Shown here piece by piece: positions 21,098 through 30,847 of a DNA stretch of 32,352 bases (position 1 is its first letter; every line of letters begins with the position of its first letter). A program made the position numbers and the translations under genes. The notes under the pieces are model-generated. The model saw nothing but the letters and a program-made list of their open reading frames with translations, made no database searches and was not told the DNA's origin. The stretch is from Rhodobiaceae bacterium (GTDB lineage: Bacteria > Pseudomonadota > Alphaproteobacteria > Rhizobiales > Aestuariivirgaceae), in contig VFJY01000004.1 of the NCBI GenBank assembly GCA_009885825.1, positions 1-32,352 on the forward strand. The letters are read 5' to 3'.

Positions 21098-22069
21098 ATG
21101 ATGAATGTAGTTTCGAACCTGATCCAAGTCGAAGTCTTGATTTCCATATTTATTGGATTTGCGGCATTTGGAACAATATTGACCATCGCCGCGCCCTACT
21201 TCGCCACTGACAGGCTGGGTTCCCGTATTAAAGCCGTGTCCATTGAGCGTGACAAACTGCGGGCGCAACAGAAAGCCCAGATGGCAGGCAGCGAAGCAAG
21301 ACTGCGCGATAAGCCCAAGACGGGTATTGTCACTCAAGCAGTTGAAGCCCTGAATTTACGGCGTTACTTTGCTGCTGATAGCGCGCGAGACCTGTTGCGT
21401 CAGGCCGGCATGAGAACTGAGCGGCAGCTTGTGATGTTTCTCGGTTTGAGGTTTGTGACCCCAATCGTTATCGCAATTGTTGCGTTTGTCTATTCTTCCA
21501 CTGTTTTTGCCGAGAAAGTTCCACCAAATATGCGGCCAATTGTTGGATTAATAGGCCTCATTGTAGGTTTCTACCTGCCGAGTATTGTCGTCAAGAATCT
21601 CAGAAGCAGGCGGCAGGAATCAATTCGAAGATCATGGTCGGATGCGCTTGATCTGCTGCTGATTTGTGTCGAGTCCGGCATGGCGATAGAACCGGCAATG
21701 CATCGTGTGGCGCGCGAAATTGGCAGCGGATCTGTTCCCTTGGCTGAAGAGCTGACTTTGACAATAGCTGAATTGTCATATCTGCAGGATCGCCGCAAGG
21801 CTTTCGAAAATTTGGCCAAGCGCACCGGCATGCCAACAGTGAAATCTGTTGTCACGAGCCTTATTCAGTCTGAGCGATACGGCACACCGCTTGGAACAGC
21901 CCTTCGTGTTCTGGCCCAGGAAAACCGCGATGCGCGCATGTCTGAAGCGGAGAGAAAGGCGGCAGCGCTCCCGCCAAAACTGACCGTGCCAATGATTCTG
22001 TTTTTCCTTCCAATTATTTTTGTTGTCATTCTGGGGCCTGCTATCATTCAAGTTATGGGCCTCAAATAG
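21098..22069 (+). CDS. tadC: Tad pilus inner-membrane protein TadC
   Basis: TadC partners TadB in the inner-membrane platform. The 323-residue protein has an N-terminal hydrophobic segment, a central membrane pair (LRFVTPIVIAIVAFVYSSTVFA, IVGLIGLIVGFYLPSIVV), the T2SF region SDALDLLLICVESGMAIEPAMHRVA and SLIQSERYGTPLGTALRVLAQENRD, and a C-terminal membrane anchor. It is complete. The customary downstream tadD gene, a TPR lipoprotein, is absent; an IS remnant begins within 25 bases. No terminator is visible after the stop. Confidence 0.93.
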   Translation: MMNVVSNLIQVEVLISIFIGFAAFGTILTIAAPYFATDRLGSRIKAVSIERDKLRAQQKAQMAGSEARLRDKPKTGIVTQAVEALNLRRYFAADSARDLLRQAGMRTERQLVMFLGLRFVTPIVIAIVAFVYSSTVFAEKVPPNMRPIVGLIGLIVGFYLPSIVVKNLRSRRQESIRRSWSDALDLLLICVESGMAIEPAMHRVAREIGSGSVPLAEELTLTIAELSYLQDRRKAFENLAKRTGMPTVKSVVTSLIQSERYGTPLGTALRVLAQENRDARMSEAERKAAALPPKLTVPMILFFLPIIFVVILGPAIIQVMGLK

Positions 22070-22093
22070 CGGGAGCATTTCGCCCAGCGTGAA

Positions 22094-22403
22094 CTAGTCA
22101 TAACTCATTGGGCTCAGGACCCATTGATTGAGATTGAAGATGAAGGCTGCTGCGATGCAGATGGCCGAGAAGAAAGTTGGGCGCAGCGGTCATAACGGGT
22201 TGAGATACGCCGCCAGTCTTTGAGTCCGCCGAACATGTTATCGATTTTTTGGCGCTGCCTGTAGAGGATTTGTCGAATGAGACGGACTGGCGGTGGTTTA
22301 TCGTGGGCGGGATACAGGCGACAATGCCCTTGACTTCGAGCGCATCGCGGAACTCGTCGCTGTCATAGCCTTTGTCGGCAATGAGGGTCTTGGCCCTCGG
22401 AAG
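22094..22403 (-). pseudogene. 3' remnant of an IS5-family transposase gene
   Basis: On the minus strand the text KTLIADKGYDSDEFRDALE, then GIVACIPP, identifies the C-terminal third of an IS5-type transposase. Two frameshifts break the frame. One lies after FDK; restoring a base gives YRQRQKIDNMFGGLKDWRRIS. The second lies after RYDRCA; another correction gives FFSAICIAAAFIFNLNQ and the TAG stop at 22094-22096. The terminal glutamate of the usual catalytic motif IEN reads D (IDN). The N-terminal part, the start and one IS end are missing, and the sequence breaks off near 22403. Confidence 0.85.
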
Positions 22404-22483
22404 TTATGAATAGAGCAGTTTTGCGCTAGTGTGGTCGCTCATTAGGTCCGCCTGTTGCAATCAAGCTATCTGAAGTCCCTCCA

Positions 22484-23349
22484 CTCTTTCGGGGCAAGTC
22501 CAGGTTTGTCGGGCTGGCGATGGATGACTGGGTGCGGGATGCCTCGACCTTCTCCAAGAACCTGGAGTGGCTGATGCAGGTGGATGTGGCGCGAGCCTTT
22601 TCATGTCCACCTTGCTGAACCTGCCACAGGTGAAGGGCCTGCTGTCTTCGGGGCACTTTGTCGGTGGATGGCACGCTGATTGATGCTTGGGCGTCGATGA
22701 AGAGTTTCGCGCCGAAGGATGGCTCGGGCGAACCGCCAACTAGAGGCCGCAAAGGTGAGCGCAACTTCCGCAAGGAGAAGCGCTCCAACGAGACCCACGC
22801 GTCAACAACCTATCCCGCTGCCATGCTGTTCCACAAGGGCGATGGCCGGTCAAGCCGCCTGTGCTTCATGGGCCATGCGCTGATGGAGAACCGCAACGGC
22901 CTCATCGTCGATTGCGATCTCACCCAGGCCACAGGCAGCGCAGAACGCGAGGCGACACTTGCAATGATCGCGCGCAGCAGCAAGGGCAAAACCATGAGCA
23001 AGGCCCGCGTGACGCTTGCTGCCGACAAGGGCTTCGACGCCGAAAGCTTTGTGCAAACGCTCAAAGCGCAGAAGGTGACGCCGCCCATCGCCATCAATGC
23101 CAGGACCTGCCAGACAGGCACCATCCACAAGACCGCCGTCGATGGCCGCACCACCCGCCATGAAGGTTATGCCATCAGCCAAAGATGCCGTAAGCGCATC
23201 GAAGAATCCTTTGGCTGTGCCAGGACCATCGGTGGGGCCGCCAAGCTGAAAGTCAGGGGGGGCTCGCCAAGGCCAAGGGCTTCTTCACGTTCCGAATGAT
23301 TGCCTGCAATCTCATCCGCGTCCCCAAACTGCTGGCAGCCGCAGCGTGA
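22484..23349 (+). pseudogene. Degenerate DDE transposase, IS5/IS1182-like
   Basis: The plus strand holds a transposase of a second element. It starts within FVGLAMDDWVRDASTFSKN at about 22505-22560, so the N-terminus is gone. The catalytic D is in SVDGTLIDAWAS, the second D in AADKGFDAESF, and the E in RKRIEESFG. Breaks in frame are visible near 22597-22602 (run of T before the ATG), near 22660, and at a seven-G run around 23255, after which LAKAKGFFTFRMIACNLIRVPKLLAAAA ends at TGA 23347-23349. It is not translatable as one protein. The family label is from memory of similar sequences. Confidence 0.85.
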
Positions 23350-23458
23350 TGCCGCATCTCCTGAACATAAAAAACCAATACAGCAGCCGCAGAAGCCGAC
23401 AGCATCCGTCAACCCGCATGATCAAAAATCAAGACAACATACATAAACGATGGGTGTG

Positions 23459-23480
23459 AGAGTTTTTCAACAGCCTGTTA
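23459..23480. repeat. Right end (terminal repeat) of the IS5/IS1182-like element
   Basis: The segment AGAGTTTTTCAACAGCCTGT lies 110 bases past the transposase stop and resembles termini of this IS group. Coding homology to an ABC permease resumes directly after it at 23481. No inverted partner copy is visible on the left side (22404-22484), in line with the element's left end having been lost. Confidence 0.55.
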
Positions 23481-23960
23481 GGCACTGGTTCTGTGGCGCT
23501 TATCTATATGCTGCTCCGTTCCAAAATTGGCCTTGCGCTCACGGCGATCCGCGACAGTGAAATCGCCTCCTCAAGCCTCGGCGTCAAAATCGAGCCGGTG
23601 AAATTTGCGGTCTATATCCTGGTCGCCGCCGCCACGGCCATGGTGGGAGCATTGATCTTCCTGCAAAAGCTCCGCATCTCGCCCGATGCCGCTTTCAGCG
23701 TCAATGACTGGACCGCCTTTGTCATTTTCATCGTTGTCATCGGTGGCATCGGCACCATCGAAGGCCCAATTATTGGAACAATCATATATTTCCTGCTGCG
23801 TGAATTCCTTGCTGACCTGGGCTCAACCTATCTGATGATTTTGGGTGCGCTCGCCATCATCATCATGCTGGCTGCACCGAAGGGCATTTGGGGCTACATT
23901 GCCCAGCGCTACAATATTTCACTCTTCCCCACTGGTTACCGTGTTCATTGGAAGGACTAG
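23481..23960 (+). pseudogene. livM: Branched-chain-type ABC transporter permease LivM, 5'-truncated
   Basis: About 159 codons remain of a LivM-type inner-membrane permease, which normally has 320-350. The frame is open from the IS end and includes the diagnostic LLRSKIGLALTAIRDSEIASSSLGV and the EAA-like loop, followed by three or four hydrophobic segments and WGYIAQRYNISLFPTGYRVHWKD. The N-terminal half and any livH, livG, livF or binding-protein genes are missing. A GTG or ATG start inside (23493 or 23508) could give a fragment, but that would not be a working permease. Just two bases separate its stop from the next gene, so in the parent operon it was co-transcribed with the catabolic genes and probably imported the substrate. 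Confidence 0.85.
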
Positions 23961-23962
23961 AC

Positions 23963-24901
23963 ATGGCAAAGGCTCCGGCGAGAAAAATCATCATATCCTG
24001 CGCGATTACAGGCAGCATCCATACGCCCACCATGTCTGACGCCCTTCCCATAACGCCAACACAAATTGCCGAACAGGCCATTGACGCGGCCAAGGCGGGC
24101 GCTGCCATCTTGCATCTTCATGCCCGCAACCCCGAAACCGGAAAGCCAACGCCCGATCCCGCCGTATTCATGGAGTTTCTGCCGCGCATCAAGCAGGGGT
24201 GCGATGCGGTCATTAACATTACAACTGGCGGCAGCATGATCATGACCGTTGACCAGCGCTTGGAGGGACCCAGGGCGTTGAAGCCCGAAATGTGTTCCCT
24301 CAATATGGGATCCATGAACTTCGCGCTGCATCCCCTGGCTGACCGTTACAAGGCCTGGAAGCATGACTGGGAAGAACCCTATCTGCGCGCTTCCGAGGAC
24401 ATGATTTTCCGCAACACGTTCCGCGATATTGACCGAATCATGAAAACAATGGGCGATAACGGCACCCGCTTTGAGCATGAATGTTATGATGTGGGCCATC
24501 TCTACAATCTCGCGCATTTTGTTGACCGCGGACTGGTGAAAGGCCCATTTTTTGTGCAGATGATTTTCGGAATACTCGGCGGCATTGGCGCCGAAATTCG
24601 CAATCTCGTATTCATGAAAGAAACCGCTGACAAGCTGTTTGGAGATGACTATCAATGGTCGGTGCTCGCCGCAGGCAGGAATCAGATGCCCTTTGCCACC
24701 CAGGCCGTGATGATGGGTGGCAATGTGCGCGTGGGTCTTGAAGACAGTCTTTTTATCAGCAAGGGAAAACTGGCCACATCGAATGCGGAGCAAGTGACGA
24801 AGATTCGCCATATCATTGAGGAATTGGGCTTCGAAATCGCCAACCCCAATGAAGCCCGCGCCATGCTGGCGCTCAAGGGCGCCGACAAAATTGGTTTCTG
24901 A
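23963..24901 (+). CDS. Beta-keto acid cleavage enzyme (BKACE, DUF849)
   Basis: BKACE enzymes condense a beta-keto acid with acetyl-CoA and cleave it to acetoacetate plus a shorter acyl-CoA; the first one known is Kce of lysine fermentation. This 312-residue protein shows the family zinc-binding HLHARNP segment near residue 53, ISCAITGSIHTPTMSD at the N-terminus, the glutamate-containing strand GAEIRNLVFMKETAD, and the C-terminal GGNVRVGLEDSLFI (family GxEDN-like, here EDS). The ATG at 23963 follows GGAAGGA; a longer in-frame ORF from 23888 lies inside livM. Its place in a hydroxyquinol operon points to 3-oxoadipate as substrate, an inference. Confidence 0.88.
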   Translation: MAKAPARKIIISCAITGSIHTPTMSDALPITPTQIAEQAIDAAKAGAAILHLHARNPETGKPTPDPAVFMEFLPRIKQGCDAVINITTGGSMIMTVDQRLEGPRALKPEMCSLNMGSMNFALHPLADRYKAWKHDWEEPYLRASEDMIFRNTFRDIDRIMKTMGDNGTRFEHECYDVGHLYNLAHFVDRGLVKGPFFVQMIFGILGGIGAEIRNLVFMKETADKLFGDDYQWSVLAAGRNQMPFATQAVMMGGNVRVGLEDSLFISKGKLATSNAEQVTKIRHIIEELGFEIANPNEARAMLALKGADKIGF

Positions 24902-24904
24902 CCA

Positions 24905-25933
24905 ATGACAAAACTGTTGTTCGCCTTTTCTGGCCTGCCCACACGCGTCATTTTTGGCGCGGGCAAGCTTGCAGAGGTTTCAGCCGAGTCCGAAAAGCTT
25001 GGCATGAAACGCCCGTTGATCATAACCGGTCAACAACAGTCAAAACTTGGCCGCGACATTGCTGCGAAACTTGTGGCCACGGCCTTCGACGGCGCGGCCA
25101 TGCACACGCCAGTGAACATCACAGAAACCGCAATGGCAATTGTCGGGGACCAGAAAATTGACGGCACAATAGCGATTGGCGGCGGCTCGGCCATTGGCCT
25201 TGGAAAGGCCATCGCCTGGCGCACCGGTCTGCCGCAAATCGCCGTGCCCACGACCTATGCCGGTTCAGAAATGACAAATATTCTGGGCGAAACCGAAGCG
25301 GGCGCAAAAATCACCAGGCGCGATACAAAAATCCAGCCGGAAACCGTGATCTATGATCCCGATCTCACAATGTCATTGCCCAGAGCCTTGGCCGCGACCT
25401 CCGCCATGAATGCCATCGCCCATGCGGTTGAGGCGCTCTATGCGAAGGACGGAAATCCCGTGATCTCGCTGATGGCGGAAGAGGGCATCAGGGCCCTGGC
25501 CATGGTTGGCGCGGACCGCGAAGAAGCTCTCTACGGAGCCTGGCTTTGTGGTTCGGTTTTGGGCGCGGTCAGCATGGCGCTGCACCACAAGCTGTGCCAC
25601 GTGCTGGGAGGTTCTTTCAATCTGCCCCATTCTGAAACCCATGCCGTGGTCCTGCCCCATGCCACTGCCTACAATGCGGCGGCGGCCCCGGATGCGATGG
25701 CCCGCGTCGTGCGCGCCCTCAACGCCAGATCCGCCCCACAGGGCCTATATGATCTTGCGAAATCCTTGAACGCGCCAACTTCCCTCAAGGCGCTTGGTCT
25801 CAAGGAAACCGACCTCGCCCGCGCCGCAGAGATAGCGGCGGCCAATCCCTATTGGAACCCCCAAGTCATTACGCTGGAGGGACTTCGAAAACTTCTGGAC
25901 GACGCTTTCCATGGCCACCGTCCCCATGCTTGA
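24905..25933 (+). CDS. Maleylacetate reductase
   Basis: This enzyme reduces maleylacetate to 3-oxoadipate with NAD(P)H. The 342-residue protein is an iron-type alcohol dehydrogenase-fold enzyme of the maleylacetate reductase group: RVIFGAGKLAEV at the N-terminus, IGGGSAIGLGKAIA nucleotide-binding loop, PTTYAGSEMTNILGETEAG (diagnostic of the group), and the histidine-rich stretch LHHKLCHVLGGSFNLPHSETHAVVLPH. The stop of the BKACE gene is four bases upstream. It acts directly after the hydroxyquinol dioxygenase in the pathway. Confidence 0.93.
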   Translation: MTKLLFAFSGLPTRVIFGAGKLAEVSAESEKLGMKRPLIITGQQQSKLGRDIAAKLVATAFDGAAMHTPVNITETAMAIVGDQKIDGTIAIGGGSAIGLGKAIAWRTGLPQIAVPTTYAGSEMTNILGETEAGAKITRRDTKIQPETVIYDPDLTMSLPRALAATSAMNAIAHAVEALYAKDGNPVISLMAEEGIRALAMVGADREEALYGAWLCGSVLGAVSMALHHKLCHVLGGSFNLPHSETHAVVLPHATAYNAAAAPDAMARVVRALNARSAPQGLYDLAKSLNAPTSLKALGLKETDLARAAEIAAANPYWNPQVITLEGLRKLLDDAFHGHRPHA

Positions 25934-25960: not shown

Positions 25961-27694
25961 ATGATCGAAACGGATGTGCTTGTGGTTGGGTCTGGTCCTG
26001 CTGGCTCATCAACGGCCGCACTGCTGTCAACCTATGGTGTTGAAAACACGCTGGTCACCAAGTACCGCTGGCTGTCCGATACGCCGCGCGGCCACATCAC
26101 CAATCAGCGCACCATGGAAATCATGCGCGACCTCGGTCTTGAGCAGCAATGCATGATGTTTGCCACCGGCCAGAAACTGATGGGCAACAACGTGTTCTGC
26201 GCCAGTCTTGCTGGCGAAGAGCTTGGCCGCCTTGCAACCTGGGGCAATCATCCCAATTCCTACGCCCGGCATCGGCTGGCCAGCCCAACGGAAATGAACG
26301 ACCTGCCGCAGAATTTTCTCGAGCCCATCCTGTTTGGCGCGGCCTGCGGGCGCGGCACGAGAGCCCGCCTACCTACCGAATATGTGTCCCATGTTCAGGA
26401 CAAGGACGGTGTCACCGCCACCGTGCGTGACCGTGTGACCGGGGAAACCTACCCTATCCGCGCCAAATATCTGGTGGGCGCCGACGGCGGAAATTCACAG
26501 GTGGCCGAAGATATTGGATTGCCCATGAACGGAAAAATGGGCGTCGCCGGCTCGATGAACATCATCGTTGAAGCCGATCTCACCAGATACGTGGCCCACC
26601 GGCCCAGCGTTCTCTATTGGGTTCTGCAGCCCGGCTCAAACGTCGGCGGCATCGGCATGGGATTGGTGCGCATGATACGGCCCTGGCATGAATGGCTCAT
26701 CCTGTGGGGCTATGACATCAGTGAACCGGCTCCGGAAATCACCGAGGAATTCGCCCGGGGCGTCGTTCATAATCTGATTGGCGATGCAACCATTCCGGTA
26801 AAAATAAAATCCATCTCCACCTGGACCGTGAATCACATGCACGCTGCGGAATATTCCAAAGGCCGCGACTTCTGTATGGGTGATGCCGTGCATCGCCACC
26901 CGCCGTCCAATGGCCTGGGGTCCAACACGTCCATTCAGGATGCCTTCAATCTCAGCTGGAAACTGGCCCATGTTTTGAAAGGCAATGCCTCGCCAAAGCT
27001 TTTGGAAACCTACAACATGGAGCGCGGGCCCATCGGCAAGCAGATTGTTGACCGCGCCAACAAATCCATCGGCGAATTCGGCCCCATATTTGATGCGCTG
27101 GGACTTCTCTCAACCACCGATCCCGACGCCATGAAGGCCAACATGGAATCGCGCAAGGAGGCAACGCCCCTTGGCGCCGAACGCCGGGCGAAATTGCATG
27201 AAGCCATCGCCTACAAGGTTTACGAGTTCGATTGCCACGGCGTGGAAATGAACCATCGATATGCCTCACCGGTAGTTGTTCCTGACGGAACACCGGAACC
27301 CCCATTCATGGAAGACGCCGAACTTTACCACCAGGCTACCACCTGGCCAGGAGCCCACTTGCCCCACGTCTGGTTGGAGAAAAACCGCAAGGCCCTCTCA
27401 ACCCTTGATCTCGCGGGGCAGGGCCGTTTCACGCTCATCACGTCGATTGGCGGCGAGGCATGGATCAAGGCCGCGAAAGAAATGGCAGGAGTTGAAATAG
27501 AAACAGTGACCATAGGCCCTGCCTGCGATGCGGAGGACCCCTTCGGTGACTGGGCCCGCATGAAGGAAATATTGGACGATGGCTGCCTGCTGGTCAGGCC
27601 CGATATGGTTGTAGCCTTCCGCGCCCACACATTGCCGAAATCTGCCGCACAGGATTTGAAAGCCGCAGTCGCCCGAATTTTAGGAAACCAGTGA
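25961..27694 (+). CDS. FAD-dependent aromatic hydroxylase (TfdB/phenol-2-monooxygenase-like)
   Basis: The 577-residue protein is a single-component NAD(P)H:FAD aromatic hydroxylase. The Rossmann FAD motif VVGSGPAGSSTA is at residues 8-19, the DG motif is YLVGADGGNSQVA, and the second FAD motif is GDAVHRHPPSNGLGSNTSIQDAFNLSWKLA. A C-terminal thioredoxin-like domain is expected in this subfamily. Relatives are 2,4-dichlorophenol 6-monooxygenase TfdB and resorcinol or phenol hydroxylases. With a hydroxyquinol dioxygenase next door it should give a 1,2,4-trihydroxybenzene, for example from resorcinol. The exact substrate is not decided by sequence. GGAGG is eight bases before the ATG. Confidence 0.9.
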   Translation: MIETDVLVVGSGPAGSSTAALLSTYGVENTLVTKYRWLSDTPRGHITNQRTMEIMRDLGLEQQCMMFATGQKLMGNNVFCASLAGEELGRLATWGNHPNSYARHRLASPTEMNDLPQNFLEPILFGAACGRGTRARLPTEYVSHVQDKDGVTATVRDRVTGETYPIRAKYLVGADGGNSQVAEDIGLPMNGKMGVAGSMNIIVEADLTRYVAHRPSVLYWVLQPGSNVGGIGMGLVRMIRPWHEWLILWGYDISEPAPEITEEFARGVVHNLIGDATIPVKIKSISTWTVNHMHAAEYSKGRDFCMGDAVHRHPPSNGLGSNTSIQDAFNLSWKLAHVLKGNASPKLLETYNMERGPIGKQIVDRANKSIGEFGPIFDALGLLSTTDPDAMKANMESRKEATPLGAERRAKLHEAIAYKVYEFDCHGVEMNHRYASPVVVPDGTPEPPFMEDAELYHQATTWPGAHLPHVWLEKNRKALSTLDLAGQGRFTLITSIGGEAWIKAAKEMAGVEIETVTIGPACDAEDPFGDWARMKEILDDGCLLVRPDMVVAFRAHTLPKSAAQDLKAAVARILGNQ

Positions 27695-27696
27695 TC

Positions 27697-28539
27697 ATGG
27701 AAGACAAGGCCTATTTCACCGAAAGGCATTCGGAAGACGTAGTCATCGCCGGCTCCGGCCCCAAGGCCAATCCGCGCGTCAAGCAGATTGTTGATGCCCT
27801 GGTGCGCCATCTCCATGCGGCCGTCAAGGAAACCGAACCCACCCTCGATGAGTGGATGCAGGGCATCGAGTTCCTGACCAAAACGGGCCACCTCTCAACC
27901 GAGTGGCGGCAGGAATTCATATTGCTGTCGGACACGCTGGGAATTTCCATGCTGGTTGAAACCATCAACAACCGCAACAACGCCGGCGAAACGGAATCAA
28001 CCGTGCTGGGGCCATTTCATGTCTCGAACGCGCCGCGCTATCCCAATGGCGCCAACATCTGCCTTGATGGCAAGGGCGAGCCGTTGTTCGTTTCCGGCTC
28101 CGTGAGGGATGCCAGGGGCAATCCAATCGCCGGCGCCACGCTGGATGTCTGGCAAGCCAACGCCGATGGTTTCTATGACGTTCAGCAAAAAGGCATCCAG
28201 CCCGACAACAACTTGCGTGGCGTCTTTACGTCGGACGCCGAGGGAAAATTCCGCTTCCAATCCGTCTATCCCCGCCACTATCCCATCCCCAATGACGGCA
28301 CTGCGGGCAACATGCTGAAAGCCCTGGACCGCGAACCCAACCGGCCCGCCCACATTCATTTCATCGTCAGCGCTCCTGGCTTCCGCCCCGTCACCACCCA
28401 TATTTTCACCCCCGACTGCCCATGGCTCAAGAAAGACGCCGTGTTTGGGGTCAGGGAAAGCCTCATCGCCGATTTCCGCAAATCCGGCGGCCACTGGGAA
28501 GTTGAGTGGAACTTCGTGCTGCCGCGCAATGACAGTTAG
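27697..28539 (+). CDS. Hydroxyquinol 1,2-dioxygenase (intradiol)
   Basis: This Fe(III) intradiol dioxygenase cleaves hydroxyquinol (1,2,4-trihydroxybenzene) to maleylacetate. The 280-residue protein has an N-terminal helical dimerization domain and a beta-sandwich core. The ferric ligands are visible as Tyr160 (NADGFYDVQ), Tyr195 (RHYPIPNDG) and His219/His221 (RPAHIHFIV). The text matches hydroxyquinol dioxygenases better than catechol dioxygenases. A GTG start at 27691 is possible, since AGGA lies upstream; the ATG at 27697 is preferred. The stop overlaps the next gene's first ATG. Confidence 0.92.
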   Translation: MEDKAYFTERHSEDVVIAGSGPKANPRVKQIVDALVRHLHAAVKETEPTLDEWMQGIEFLTKTGHLSTEWRQEFILLSDTLGISMLVETINNRNNAGETESTVLGPFHVSNAPRYPNGANICLDGKGEPLFVSGSVRDARGNPIAGATLDVWQANADGFYDVQQKGIQPDNNLRGVFTSDAEGKFRFQSVYPRHYPIPNDGTAGNMLKALDREPNRPAHIHFIVSAPGFRPVTTHIFTPDCPWLKKDAVFGVRESLIADFRKSGGHWEVEWNFVLPRNDS

Positions 28540-29962
28540 GCTTTCATCGCGTCATGACATGACGCTTGAAGCCTTGCAGCGCGTCGCATGGAACGGCGAG
28601 TCGGTGGTTTTTGATGATGCGGCCCTGGCACATATGGCTGCTGCGCGGAAATGCTTCATGACGCTCCTCGAAGATCCCGAGATATCGGTTTATGGAGTAA
28701 CCAGCGGCTACGGCCAGAATGCCAGCAAGCGATTGACGGAAGCCGAGCGAAAGGCCCATTCCAGGCGCCCGCCCATTCAACAGGCGGCAACCTGGGGCGA
28801 TCCGTTGCCGGATCGCGTCACCCGCGCCATCATATTTGCCCGCCTTGCAAATCTGATCGACGGCGGCGCTGCCATCACACCGGGCGTGGCGATTGCGGTG
28901 GCTGAGATGCTCGACGGCAGGCCCCTGCCTGTAATTCCGGCGCGCGGCCAGGGCGGCGCAGGGGAAATACTCTCGCTCTCCCACGTCTTTGGCGGGCTCG
29001 CCGCAACAGCGCCCATTGCCGAGAAAGATGTGCTCTCGCTGATAAATGGATCACCTGCTGCAAGCGCCCTGGTTTCCGATGCAGCCCTTGCTGCCAATGC
29101 CAGGCTTACTGTTGCGGTTGAAATTTTTGCCCTCGCCGCCGAAGCTTTCAACACGCCTCTCGGTCATTTTGCCCCTGAACTTGGCGAACTCTGGAACAAC
29201 CCGCATGACGCATGGGCGCTGGCTGCCCTGCATGCGGCCATAGGTGGCGGCCATGGCGGTGCCCGAAGGCCCTATCAGGCGCCAGTGAGTTTTCGAATTC
29301 TGCCCCGCATGCTGGGGCAGGCGCGCAGGGCCGAACGCCTCGCCCGCGAAATTGCCGCAGAATCCCTGAGTGCCGTGACAGACAATCCGGTGCTGCTGCA
29401 GCCGGATGCGGATCATCCCCATGGCCGCATCATCAGCACTGGCGGCTATCACAATCCCCACGCGGTTATGGCGATGGATGCGGTTACGGCAGCAACAGTG
29501 AACTTGATTACAATTGCTGGCCGCCTTGCCGCCAAACTGCTCGACGGGAATGTTTCGCAATTGCCTGATCAACTGGGTCTGAGTGGCCAGGCGGGCTACA
29601 TGGGTTGCCTGCCCATGGCGATCACTGGTTTCGAGGAAGAAGCGCGCCTTCATGCCGGTTCAACCCTGTTGCCGGGCTCTGAGTCCGGCAGCTTCGGTCA
29701 GGATGACGTGGCCTCACCCATATTCCTGGCCTGGGGCAAGCAGGAAAAGACCGGAGCCTTGCTGGAAGCAGCGCTTGCCAGCCTCGCCTTTATCGCACTC
29801 CGCGCTCTTGATGTGACAGCGCGGCCCGTTCCGCCGGCGCTTGCGCCCATGGCCGAATTGATCCGCAGGTTTTTGCCTGCATCCGACTCGAATCAAGTTC
29901 TCGGCCCCGCCGCCGCACAGCTCGAAACTCATTTGCGCTCAAGAGTCTACCGCGCGCAGTAG
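28529..29962 (+). CDS. HAL/PAL-fold aromatic amino acid lyase homologue lacking the MIO serine
   Basis: This 477-residue protein is a member of the histidine/phenylalanine ammonia-lyase family. Conserved blocks include the catalytic-loop tyrosine VYGVTSGYG (Y55), SLSAVTDNPVLL, ISTGGYHNPHAV and SGSFGQDDVASP. The segment that normally reads GSVGASGDLAPLAH, where Ala-Ser-Gly cyclises into the electrophile MIO, reads GQGGAGEILSLSH here (residues 140-152), one residue shorter, with no serine at the MIO position. Ordinary ammonia-lyase chemistry is therefore not expected. The ATG at 28529 overlaps the dioxygenase stop; ATG 28559 is an alternative, and neither has a strong ribosome binding site. It is the last gene of the operon. 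Confidence 0.85.
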   Translation: MTVRLSSRHDMTLEALQRVAWNGESVVFDDAALAHMAAARKCFMTLLEDPEISVYGVTSGYGQNASKRLTEAERKAHSRRPPIQQAATWGDPLPDRVTRAIIFARLANLIDGGAAITPGVAIAVAEMLDGRPLPVIPARGQGGAGEILSLSHVFGGLAATAPIAEKDVLSLINGSPAASALVSDAALAANARLTVAVEIFALAAEAFNTPLGHFAPELGELWNNPHDAWALAALHAAIGGGHGGARRPYQAPVSFRILPRMLGQARRAERLAREIAAESLSAVTDNPVLLQPDADHPHGRIISTGGYHNPHAVMAMDAVTAATVNLITIAGRLAAKLLDGNVSQLPDQLGLSGQAGYMGCLPMAITGFEEEARLHAGSTLLPGSESGSFGQDDVASPIFLAWGKQEKTGALLEAALASLAFIALRALDVTARPVPPALAPMAELIRRFLPASDSNQVLGPAAAQLETHLRSRVYRAQ

Positions 29963-29965
29963 TTC

Positions 29966-30847
29966 CTATTCCGCCGCGATCATCTGCAGTTTGAGATTTG
30001 AAAGGCTTTCCGTCACGTGCCGCGCCAGCGCTTCAATGGCCGAGTTGGACTTGCCGGGCTTGCGCACCAGCCCGATGTCGAAGGTTCCAAGCGCTGGAAA
30101 GCCATCCTTTTCGGTGAGCACCCGCATGCCGGGCCGCACACAAAGCTCCGGCATTGCGCCAACCGCCAGCCCCTGCATCACGGCGGCATTCACCGCGTTT
30201 GAATTGGGCGTCGAATAGGCCACGCGGAATTTGCGCCCCGCGCCATCAAGAGACTTCACGACCTTGCTCCGCCAATCGCAACCCGCATGGGAAACCGCGA
30301 GGGGCAGCACATCAAGCATGTGAACGCTGTGGCGCGTGGAGGTGACCCACACCAGTTTTTCACGCCGCACCGGCTCGTCGGTGATGATGTCGCAACCGAA
30401 AGTCACCACCGCCAAATCCATTTCGCTGCGCTTCACCCGCTCAAACAACACGCTGCTGTTCAGGCAATCCACATCCACGGTCACAAGCGGGTGCGTGCGG
30501 GCAAAGCGCGCCAGAATTTCCGGCAGGAACCTGTCGGCATAATCATCAGGCGTGCCAAAGCGGATGGTGCCCGTGAGTTCAGGCTTGGTGAACGCCGAAA
30601 CCGCCTCATCATTCATCGCCACCATGCGCCTTGCGTAGTCCACCAGCCTTTCGCCATCGGGCGTGAAGCGGCTGTTCCTGCCGTCTTTCGCAAACAGCGG
30701 GCAGGCCACCAGGTCTTCCAGCCGTTTCATCTGCATGGAAACCGCCGACTGGGTCTTGTTAACCTCTTCAGCGGCGCGCGTGAAACTGCCGAAATCGGCG
30801 ATGGCCAGAAACGTCTTCAACAGGTCGACATCAAGATTGGCAATCAT
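29966..30847 (-). CDS. LysR-family transcriptional regulator
   Basis: The 293-residue protein has an N-terminal winged helix-turn-helix (LKTFLAIADFGSFTRAAEEVNKTQSAVSMQMKRLED, residues 10-45) and a C-terminal LysR substrate domain (from about residue 92, TGTIRFGTPDDYADRFLPEIL). It is convergent with the catabolic operon; its stop is three bases from the lyase stop. That placement makes it a candidate regulator of that operon, but LysR regulators are more often divergent from their targets, so this is uncertain. Its promoter faces the DUF1127 gene across 165 bases. Confidence 0.92.
   Translation of the reverse strand: MIANLDVDLLKTFLAIADFGSFTRAAEEVNKTQSAVSMQMKRLEDLVACPLFAKDGRNSRFTPDGERLVDYARRMVAMNDEAVSAFTKPELTGTIRFGTPDDYADRFLPEILARFARTHPLVTVDVDCLNSSVLFERVKRSEMDLAVVTFGCDIITDEPVRREKLVWVTSTRHSVHMLDVLPLAVSHAGCDWRSKVVKSLDGAGRKFRVAYSTPNSNAVNAAVMQGLAVGAMPELCVRPGMRVLTEKDGFPALGTFDIGLVRKPGKSNSAIEALARHVTESLSNLKLQMIAAE

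Follow-up and report, generated by a model that had tools for sequence, protein, structure and literature searches.

Introduction

MIO is textbook knowledge for the HAL/PAL fold, and PAL, TAL and the aminomutases, which have this fold in common with the protein described here, use it as their electrophile. For histidine ammonia-lyase (HutH; PDB 1gkj and relatives; model TIGR01225), whose residue numbering is used throughout, we take Tyr53 to be the base, Asn195 and Arg283 to bind the carboxylate, Gln277 and Asp415 to hold the site, His83 to bind the imidazole, and His83 and Glu414 to belong to the active site. A HAL-like protein without the MIO triad is already known, namely ergothionase, the ergothioneine trimethylamine-lyase (PDB 6s7j and 6s7q), which is reported to lack MIO in a 2026 paper (PMC13405746). 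Another such variant is the GAGE clade described here, on which no paper was recognised in the open-access literature as represented mainly by titles and the beginnings of abstracts, together with parts of PMC13405746 and PMC9732360.

The gene under study, called GAGE-HAL after its loop, was found in a window of 32,352 nucleotides (the whole stretch of DNA analysed) from a Rhodobiaceae bacterium. Its protein was compared with HutH, with ergothionase and with its own relatives, and the genes around it and around these relatives were identified by profile and similarity searches.

Results

Loop of the GAGE-HAL protein

The GAGE-HAL gene lies at 28529..29962 on the forward strand and encodes 477 aa. 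The start was set at ATG 28529 because an alignment of 30 relatives shows hardly any variation at M1 of this frame, and the translated frame contains PARGQGGAGEILSLSHVFG. Membership of the superfamily was established with PF00221 (Lyase_aromatic, Pfam), which gave 200.8 bits over a cut-off of 27.3 when run on the frame starting at 28556. The window protein stayed under the cut-off of every NCBIfam model, TIGR01225 (HutH) giving 129.2 bits against 539.15. The nearest solved structures by sequence were histidine ammonia-lyases (1gkj, E 1.7e-15), and no chain close to the window protein or its clade was found in the search of solved-structure sequences.

By translation and alignment, GQGGAGEILSLSH (28946..28984, forward strand) stands in place of the GASGD MIO triad. 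Compared with canonical HutH (GSVGASGDLAPL or SVGASGDLAPL), the loop has one residue fewer, the gap falling in the column of the MIO serine, Ser143, so that it reads GQGGA-GEIL, and Asp145 after the triad is replaced by Glu. Both the absence of the serine and the loss of one residue, as claimed by the first-pass annotation, were thus confirmed. The other blocks that it had reported as retained (Y55, DNP, GGYHN and Q-D-D) are present, and the 30 aligned relatives show little or no variation in them apart from the middle Q-D-D residue, which is either Asp or Asn.

Distribution and conservation of the clade

Relatives were collected by one pattern-led and two motif-independent searches. The scan with the patterns GQGGAGEI and [IV]STGGYHN found 133 relatives, of which 80 were kept; after the partial or broken rows L060, L072 and L081 had been dropped, the remaining 77 and the window protein gave an alignment of 78. 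Adding a plasmid gene from Rhizobium (L102) and the L108 second copy brought these 78 to the 80 GAGE rows that were compared with four HutH rows. The Ser143 column is a gap in all 80 GAGE rows, 77 of which come from the pattern scan, their loci being partly selected by the motif itself. Searching 100 related genomes with the protein (own genome counted; E 1e-30 or better) gave 17 matches in 15 genomes, and the serine is absent from 17/17, including two distant tandem copies in G045. In 387 genomes drawn evenly from the class, the own one among them, the profile search gave 27 matches in 20 genomes, with Ala-Ser-Gly in 0/27 loops, so that the missing serine is well beyond a chance finding; these loops are mostly GGAGE, some distant ones being GSAGE or GPGE, and the most distant match (L167, 38% identity) reads GQDSEGEL. 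The first-pass annotation had asked whether GAGE is conserved in a clade; it is, and a recent local loss of the serine is ruled out by the Ser-less loops across the whole clade. An alternative electrophile formed from a Ser, Thr or Cys of the loop core was judged unlikely, since 76/80 rows have none of the three in the seven residues GGAGEIL (the other four have a Cys), with the exception of some more distant copies from the 387-genome search, in which a Ser stands one place before the Ala (GSAGE).

Tyr53, Asn195, Gln277, Arg283, His330 and Asp415 are kept in 80/80 GAGE rows, and Asp145 is replaced by Glu and Tyr280 by Val in all of them. At the position of His83, His is found in 0/80, and the position of Glu414 is occupied by Asp in 29/80 and by Asn in 51/80. 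Altogether 88 alignment columns are identical in at least 78/80 rows. The dN/dS ratio of the window gene against its closest relative (L021, 76% identical protein) was about 0.12 at a dS of 1.66, which is near saturation, and three closer, unsaturated pairs of relatives gave 0.14-0.18. GAGE-HAL genes are under purifying selection, as the first-pass annotation had proposed to check, and the remaining residues of the catalytic framework are kept throughout.

Runs of two to three divergent GAGE-type paralogues side by side were observed in G217 (L161, L164, L166, L168) and G045 (L018/L020), with the Glu of GE retained and the remaining loop variable. The copies in L032 and L062, from records named Chloroflexota and Oceanobacillus, group with alphaproteobacterial ones and are probably mis-binned or mislabelled.

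Place in the family

A tree of 94 rows was built by a quick method from groups other than ergothionase and has several long branches. In it, a fully supported branch separates the two G045 copies together with all 80 GAGE rows from HutH, from a group of proteins reading GASD or GSSD instead of GASGD, and from a Rhizobium daejeonense protein with GYLTH at this place. The triad has thus been lost in several groups of PF00221. HutH shares with GAGE-HAL the PF00221 fold family and Tyr53, Asn195, Gln277, Arg283 and Asp415; it differs in the MIO serine, His83, Glu414 and Tyr280, all absent or replaced in GAGE-HAL, and it falls in a separate clade.

Over the loop, 6s7j has no extra residue relative to the window protein, unlike unprocessed HutH (100 vs 101 residues), and the same comparison with a GASD protein gave 119 vs 120 residues; judged from these alignment lengths, the loop region of ergothionase has the same net length as that of the window protein. 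With the GAGE clade profile, 6s7j reached 71 bits and HutH 1gkj 109 bits, the tyrosine aminomutases being about equal to HutH and the PAL chains below it. The ergothionase score is thus below those of HutH, the tyrosine aminomutases and AdmH, which speaks against close kinship. A GASD member gave 210 bits with 6s7j and 224 bits with 1gkj, so that ergothionase is nearer by score to the GASD group than to the GAGE clade. By these comparisons the GAGE clade looks like a separate MIO-less lineage beside ergothionase.

The GASD/GSSD group (L114-L119 and L121, in G112, G114, G117, G120, G126 and G142) has a loop one residue shorter than GASGD; one of its members is nearly as near to ergothionase as to HutH by score, and G126 holds no other HutH-like protein over 100 bits. 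The R. daejeonense protein (L105 2845-4341, on a plasmid) is HutH-like with 454 bits to TIGR01225, under the cut-off, and its triad region, GSVGYLTHAAA, adds a further MIO-less form. The annotation of this stretch includes a molybdopterin-binding protein and a PhnD-type binding protein.

The operon in the window

GAGE-HAL is preceded on the forward strand by the C-terminal part of a LivM-type ABC permease (23493..23960; BPD_transp_2 profile positions 144-269 of 269 only), a beta-keto acid cleavage enzyme (BKACE, 23960..24901; PF05853; NF053538 552 bits over a cut-off of 430), an iron-ADH-family reductase (24905..25933; Pfam Fe-ADH and ADH_Fe_C; under the cut-off of all NCBIfam models matched), an FAD aromatic-ring monooxygenase (25961..27694; Pfam FAD_binding_3 370 bits, Rng_hyd_C) and an intradiol ring-cleavage dioxygenase (27691..28539; Dioxygenase_N and Dioxygenase_C; under the cut-off of the NCBIfam dioxygenase models matched), and it is followed by a convergent LysR-type regulator on the reverse strand (29966..30847; HTH_1, LysR_substrate). 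From context we take the reductase to be a maleylacetate reductase, and the dioxygenase is presumably hydroxyquinol 1,2-dioxygenase-like, as named in the first-pass annotation. Because the first 11 bases of GAGE-HAL are shared with the dioxygenase gene (11 bp overlap), the two are probably co-transcribed. At 22060-23492, transposase-like remains, presumably of IS5 type, end right before the LivM gene reduced to its C-terminal part, and the importer of the operon seems to have been cut off by an insertion.

The neighbours were sought by tblastn (E 1e-12, half of the query length) in the 80 related loci (1.42 Mb, many truncated where the contig stops). The monooxygenase, dioxygenase, reductase and LivM genes were found near 0/80 loci, the closest relative L021 included, and BKACE-type proteins (31-36% identity) near 4/80. 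Conversely, 36 other genomes had a dioxygenase match, and the surroundings were fetched for eight of them: the reductase was found in four of these eight loci and the monooxygenase and LivM in three of those four, and at the thresholds used GAGE-HAL and BKACE were each found in 0/8. In the five other sampled genomes holding both, GAGE-HAL and the dioxygenase are on different contigs. GAGE-HAL thus has no conserved place in hydroxyquinol-type operons (0/80 GAGE loci, 0/8 dioxygenase loci); therefore neither GAGE-HAL nor the aromatic gene set needs the other, and the operon in the window has two additions. The role in the processing of an aromatic substrate that the first-pass annotation had suggested from the position of the gene is not supported by these counts, though GAGE-HAL may still serve this single operon.

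Genes beside the relatives

Gene calling around the relatives was limited by the callers, the first being poor and the second missing GAGE-HAL itself in 6/81 loci. No neighbour conserved across the whole clade was found, clusters at 38% identity being confined to branches, and of the about 50 neighbours named in the 80 loci, most are unconnected with betaines or urocanate. A trans-3-hydroxy-L-proline dehydratase homologue (613 bits over 550 in L027) lies within 6 kb in 5/80 loci (L021, L027, L042, L052 and L057), which are in separate branches of the tree. In L025, L031 and L033, GAGE-HAL follows a betaine-aldehyde-dehydrogenase-like gene, with carnitine-dehydrogenase-like, crotonobetainyl-CoA-hydratase-like, BKACE, HisA-like and RidA-like genes on the opposite strand; the neighbour proteins named in L031 and L025 are all under NCBIfam cut-offs.

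Two kinds of neighbourhood come together in one subclade. In L039, hutC (273 bits over 220) and hutU (945 over 375) are followed directly by GAGE-HAL. The hutU product scored 701 with the thiourocanate hydratase model, under its cut-off of 930; in this the locus differs from what ergothionase would suggest, the urocanase beside the hut-linked GAGE-HAL scoring as urocanase and not as thiourocanate hydratase. The same gene order, with hutC and hutU homologues of 88-92% identity, is found in L053 and L032, the latter also holding HutI (472 over 298), HutG (309 over 279) and a HutF homologue of 91% identity. In G123, HutC and HutU homologues precede the second copy (L108), and its contig also carries HutF (556 over 413) as well as homologues of HutG and HutI. 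The hut-linked GAGE-HAL sits in the place of HutH after hutC-hutU.

Canonical HutH was not found in the genomes of three of these loci (G110, G136 and G123). It was also not found in G109, which holds L032; as this bin carries the name Chloroflexota and its L032 contig was probably mis-binned, no weight is given to the lack of HutH and Tmm there. The same set of hut genes, again with no HutH, occurs in G113, where the GAGE copy is on another contig. Among 39 genomes picked by choice from those of the 80 loci, not by random draw, HutH was over cut-off in 23 and HutU in 32. HutI was under cut-off or absent in G110, G136 and G125 although HutU is present, perhaps owing to incomplete assemblies. 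Four genomes combine a hut-linked copy with the lack of HutH; set against 5/28 others, this gave a Fisher p of 0.0035, a value not relied on because G109 is a doubtful host of L032, the four copies fall in one subclade and the genomes were chosen.

In L029, L038 and L058, an OpuAC-type binding protein gene stands directly upstream of GAGE-HAL (it is read in two frames in L038), with a ProV-type ATPase beyond (355 bits over 327 in L029) and a choXWV/ProW-type permease in L029 and L038 (372 over 363 in L038), L058 ending there. The second gene downstream of GAGE-HAL in L038 encodes trimethylamine monooxygenase (Tmm, 835 over 675), and TMAO demethylase (Tdm, 1250 over 1100) lies beyond the importer; a Tmm copy 96% identical to that of L038 is cut by the contig end in L058, and in L040 a TMAO demethylase (1133 over 1100) lies 8 kb away from GAGE-HAL. 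A protein to which neither Pfam nor NCBIfam gave a match at the limits used (L038 11451-12206, reverse strand; L058 3339-4064, reverse strand; L139 7235-7879) adjoins Tmm in G125, G138 and G136 and sits between Tmm and GAGE-HAL in G125 and G138.

The four hut-linked and three importer-linked rows form, with L046 and L050, a nine-row subclade with support of 100, within which L029, L038, L058, L039 and L053 form a group with support of 98. Among the seven subclade genomes tested (G109 set aside and the genome of L046 left out), all hold HutU, one as a contig-end fragment, and five are without canonical HutH. The window protein is about 60% identical to this subclade. Its own genome also encodes HutU and a conventional HutH (596 bits to PF00221), both on another contig (C205); contig C30 carries Tmm (843 bits) and, near it, a Tdm homologue. 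The organism could use trimethylamine, and no tie of these Tmm and Tdm genes to GAGE-HAL was seen.

Co-occurrence in the sampled genomes

Across the 387 genomes, Tmm was found in 12/20 GAGE-HAL carriers vs 25/387 overall (p 2.5e-11). Counted by genus, it was found in 4/12 (p 0.002), or 3/11 (p 0.012) with the own genome removed. The dioxygenase, taken as a control, was found in 6/20 carriers (p 0.007), in 5/12 by genus (p 0.007) and in 4/11 with the own genome removed (p 0.026). At the genus level the co-occurrence of Tmm is hardly stronger than that of the control. Five carrier genomes (G122, G127, G129, G130 and G133) have no HutU, HutH or Tmm over cut-off, and G123, with its hut-linked copy, has no Tmm over cut-off. 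Because of these five genomes, one substrate cannot serve the whole clade.

Discussion

The preferred reading, to which we give a probability of about 0.45, is that GAGE-HAL is an active MIO-free lyase in a clade of its own within the HAL/PAL fold, which would act by elimination from a betaine, with hercynine (histidine betaine) as the likely substrate in the hut- and importer-linked subclade. The protein would still deprotonate an alpha-amino-acid-like substrate at its beta-carbon, and the leaving group, trimethylammonium, would already be a good one, making MIO unneeded; by analogy, this would be the same kind of elimination as that of ergothionase. The loss of the serine while the base and the carboxylate-binding residues are kept would be explained in this way, since trimethylammonium could leave without the help of MIO. 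In the subclade, hercynine would most likely be converted to urocanate and trimethylamine, the former passing to HutU and the latter to Tmm and Tdm. Hercynine is suggested because the import of a quaternary ammonium compound, an enzyme for urocanate and an enzyme for trimethylamine come together there, and ergothioneine is disfavoured because the urocanase of L039 scores as urocanase. We infer this chain from importer, hut and Tmm links that come from few, closely related loci. The window protein, too, would most likely act on a betaine by this type of elimination. The odds of an MIO-free betaine lyase as the type of reaction are put at about even, and those of hercynine as the substrate of the window protein itself are put below that.

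Four other explanations were weighed against betaine elimination. The clade may act on several substrates, the window protein removing some other good leaving group, neither trimethylamine nor ammonia, from an amino-acid-like compound; this is possible and the least unlikely of the four, as the neighbours are branch-specific (for example, a class III aminotransferase with a SnoaL-like protein, a cupin, the trans-3-hydroxyproline dehydratase and the carnitine-dehydrogenase-like and RidA-like proteins), while the uniform loop and site residues clade-wide argue for one reaction type. An enzyme of the aromatic pathway, as proposed in the first-pass annotation (a lyase, hydratase or isomerase acting on a ring-cleavage product or an aromatic precursor), would agree with the place of GAGE-HAL as the last gene of the operon, overlapping the dioxygenase gene, and with the mild enrichment of the dioxygenase in GAGE-HAL genomes. 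We regard it as unlikely, since the monooxygenase, dioxygenase and reductase are absent near all 80 related loci, the related gene sets of L169, L171 and L172 occur without GAGE-HAL, and the two partners lie on different contigs in the five other genomes with both.

Rather doubtful is an MIO-free histidine ammonia-lyase, in which the hut-linked members would perform the reaction of HutH on free histidine by a new mechanism, the window protein being a relative of them. The position after hutC-hutU, the hutG, hutI and hutF homologues in L032 and L108 and the three genomes without canonical HutH, one of them (G123) also without Tmm over cut-off, point towards it; the lost His83, the replacement of Glu414 by Asp or Asn and the sister members beside a betaine importer and Tmm/Tdm point away from it, and we know of no way to expel ammonia without an electrophile, which counts against it as well. 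That GAGE-HAL is a non-catalytic homologue (pseudoenzyme) would fit the loss of the electrophile of the family, and it is improbable in view of the kept catalytic residues, the dN/dS values of about 0.12-0.18 and the operon positions in place of an enzyme. The first-pass annotation had left the choice between a subfamily with different chemistry and a dead homologue. A subfamily rather than a local loss is what was found, and with the catalytic framework strongly conserved, different chemistry is the likelier of the two.

Ergothionase represents one way round MIO, and the GAGE clade, present in 20 of the 387 sampled genomes, is not rare in the Alphaproteobacteria. If the betaine reading is true, the clade would offer a way to turn histidine betaine into urocanate and trimethylamine, and trimethylamine would have a source overlooked by models of the NCBIfam type. 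If instead the MIO-free histidine ammonia-lyase is true, working with no electrophilic cofactor of any kind, HutH would have been replaced in whole hut operons, which would overturn the view that the fold needs MIO for ammonia. The hut operons with an MIO-less protein in the place of HutH make the question directly testable.
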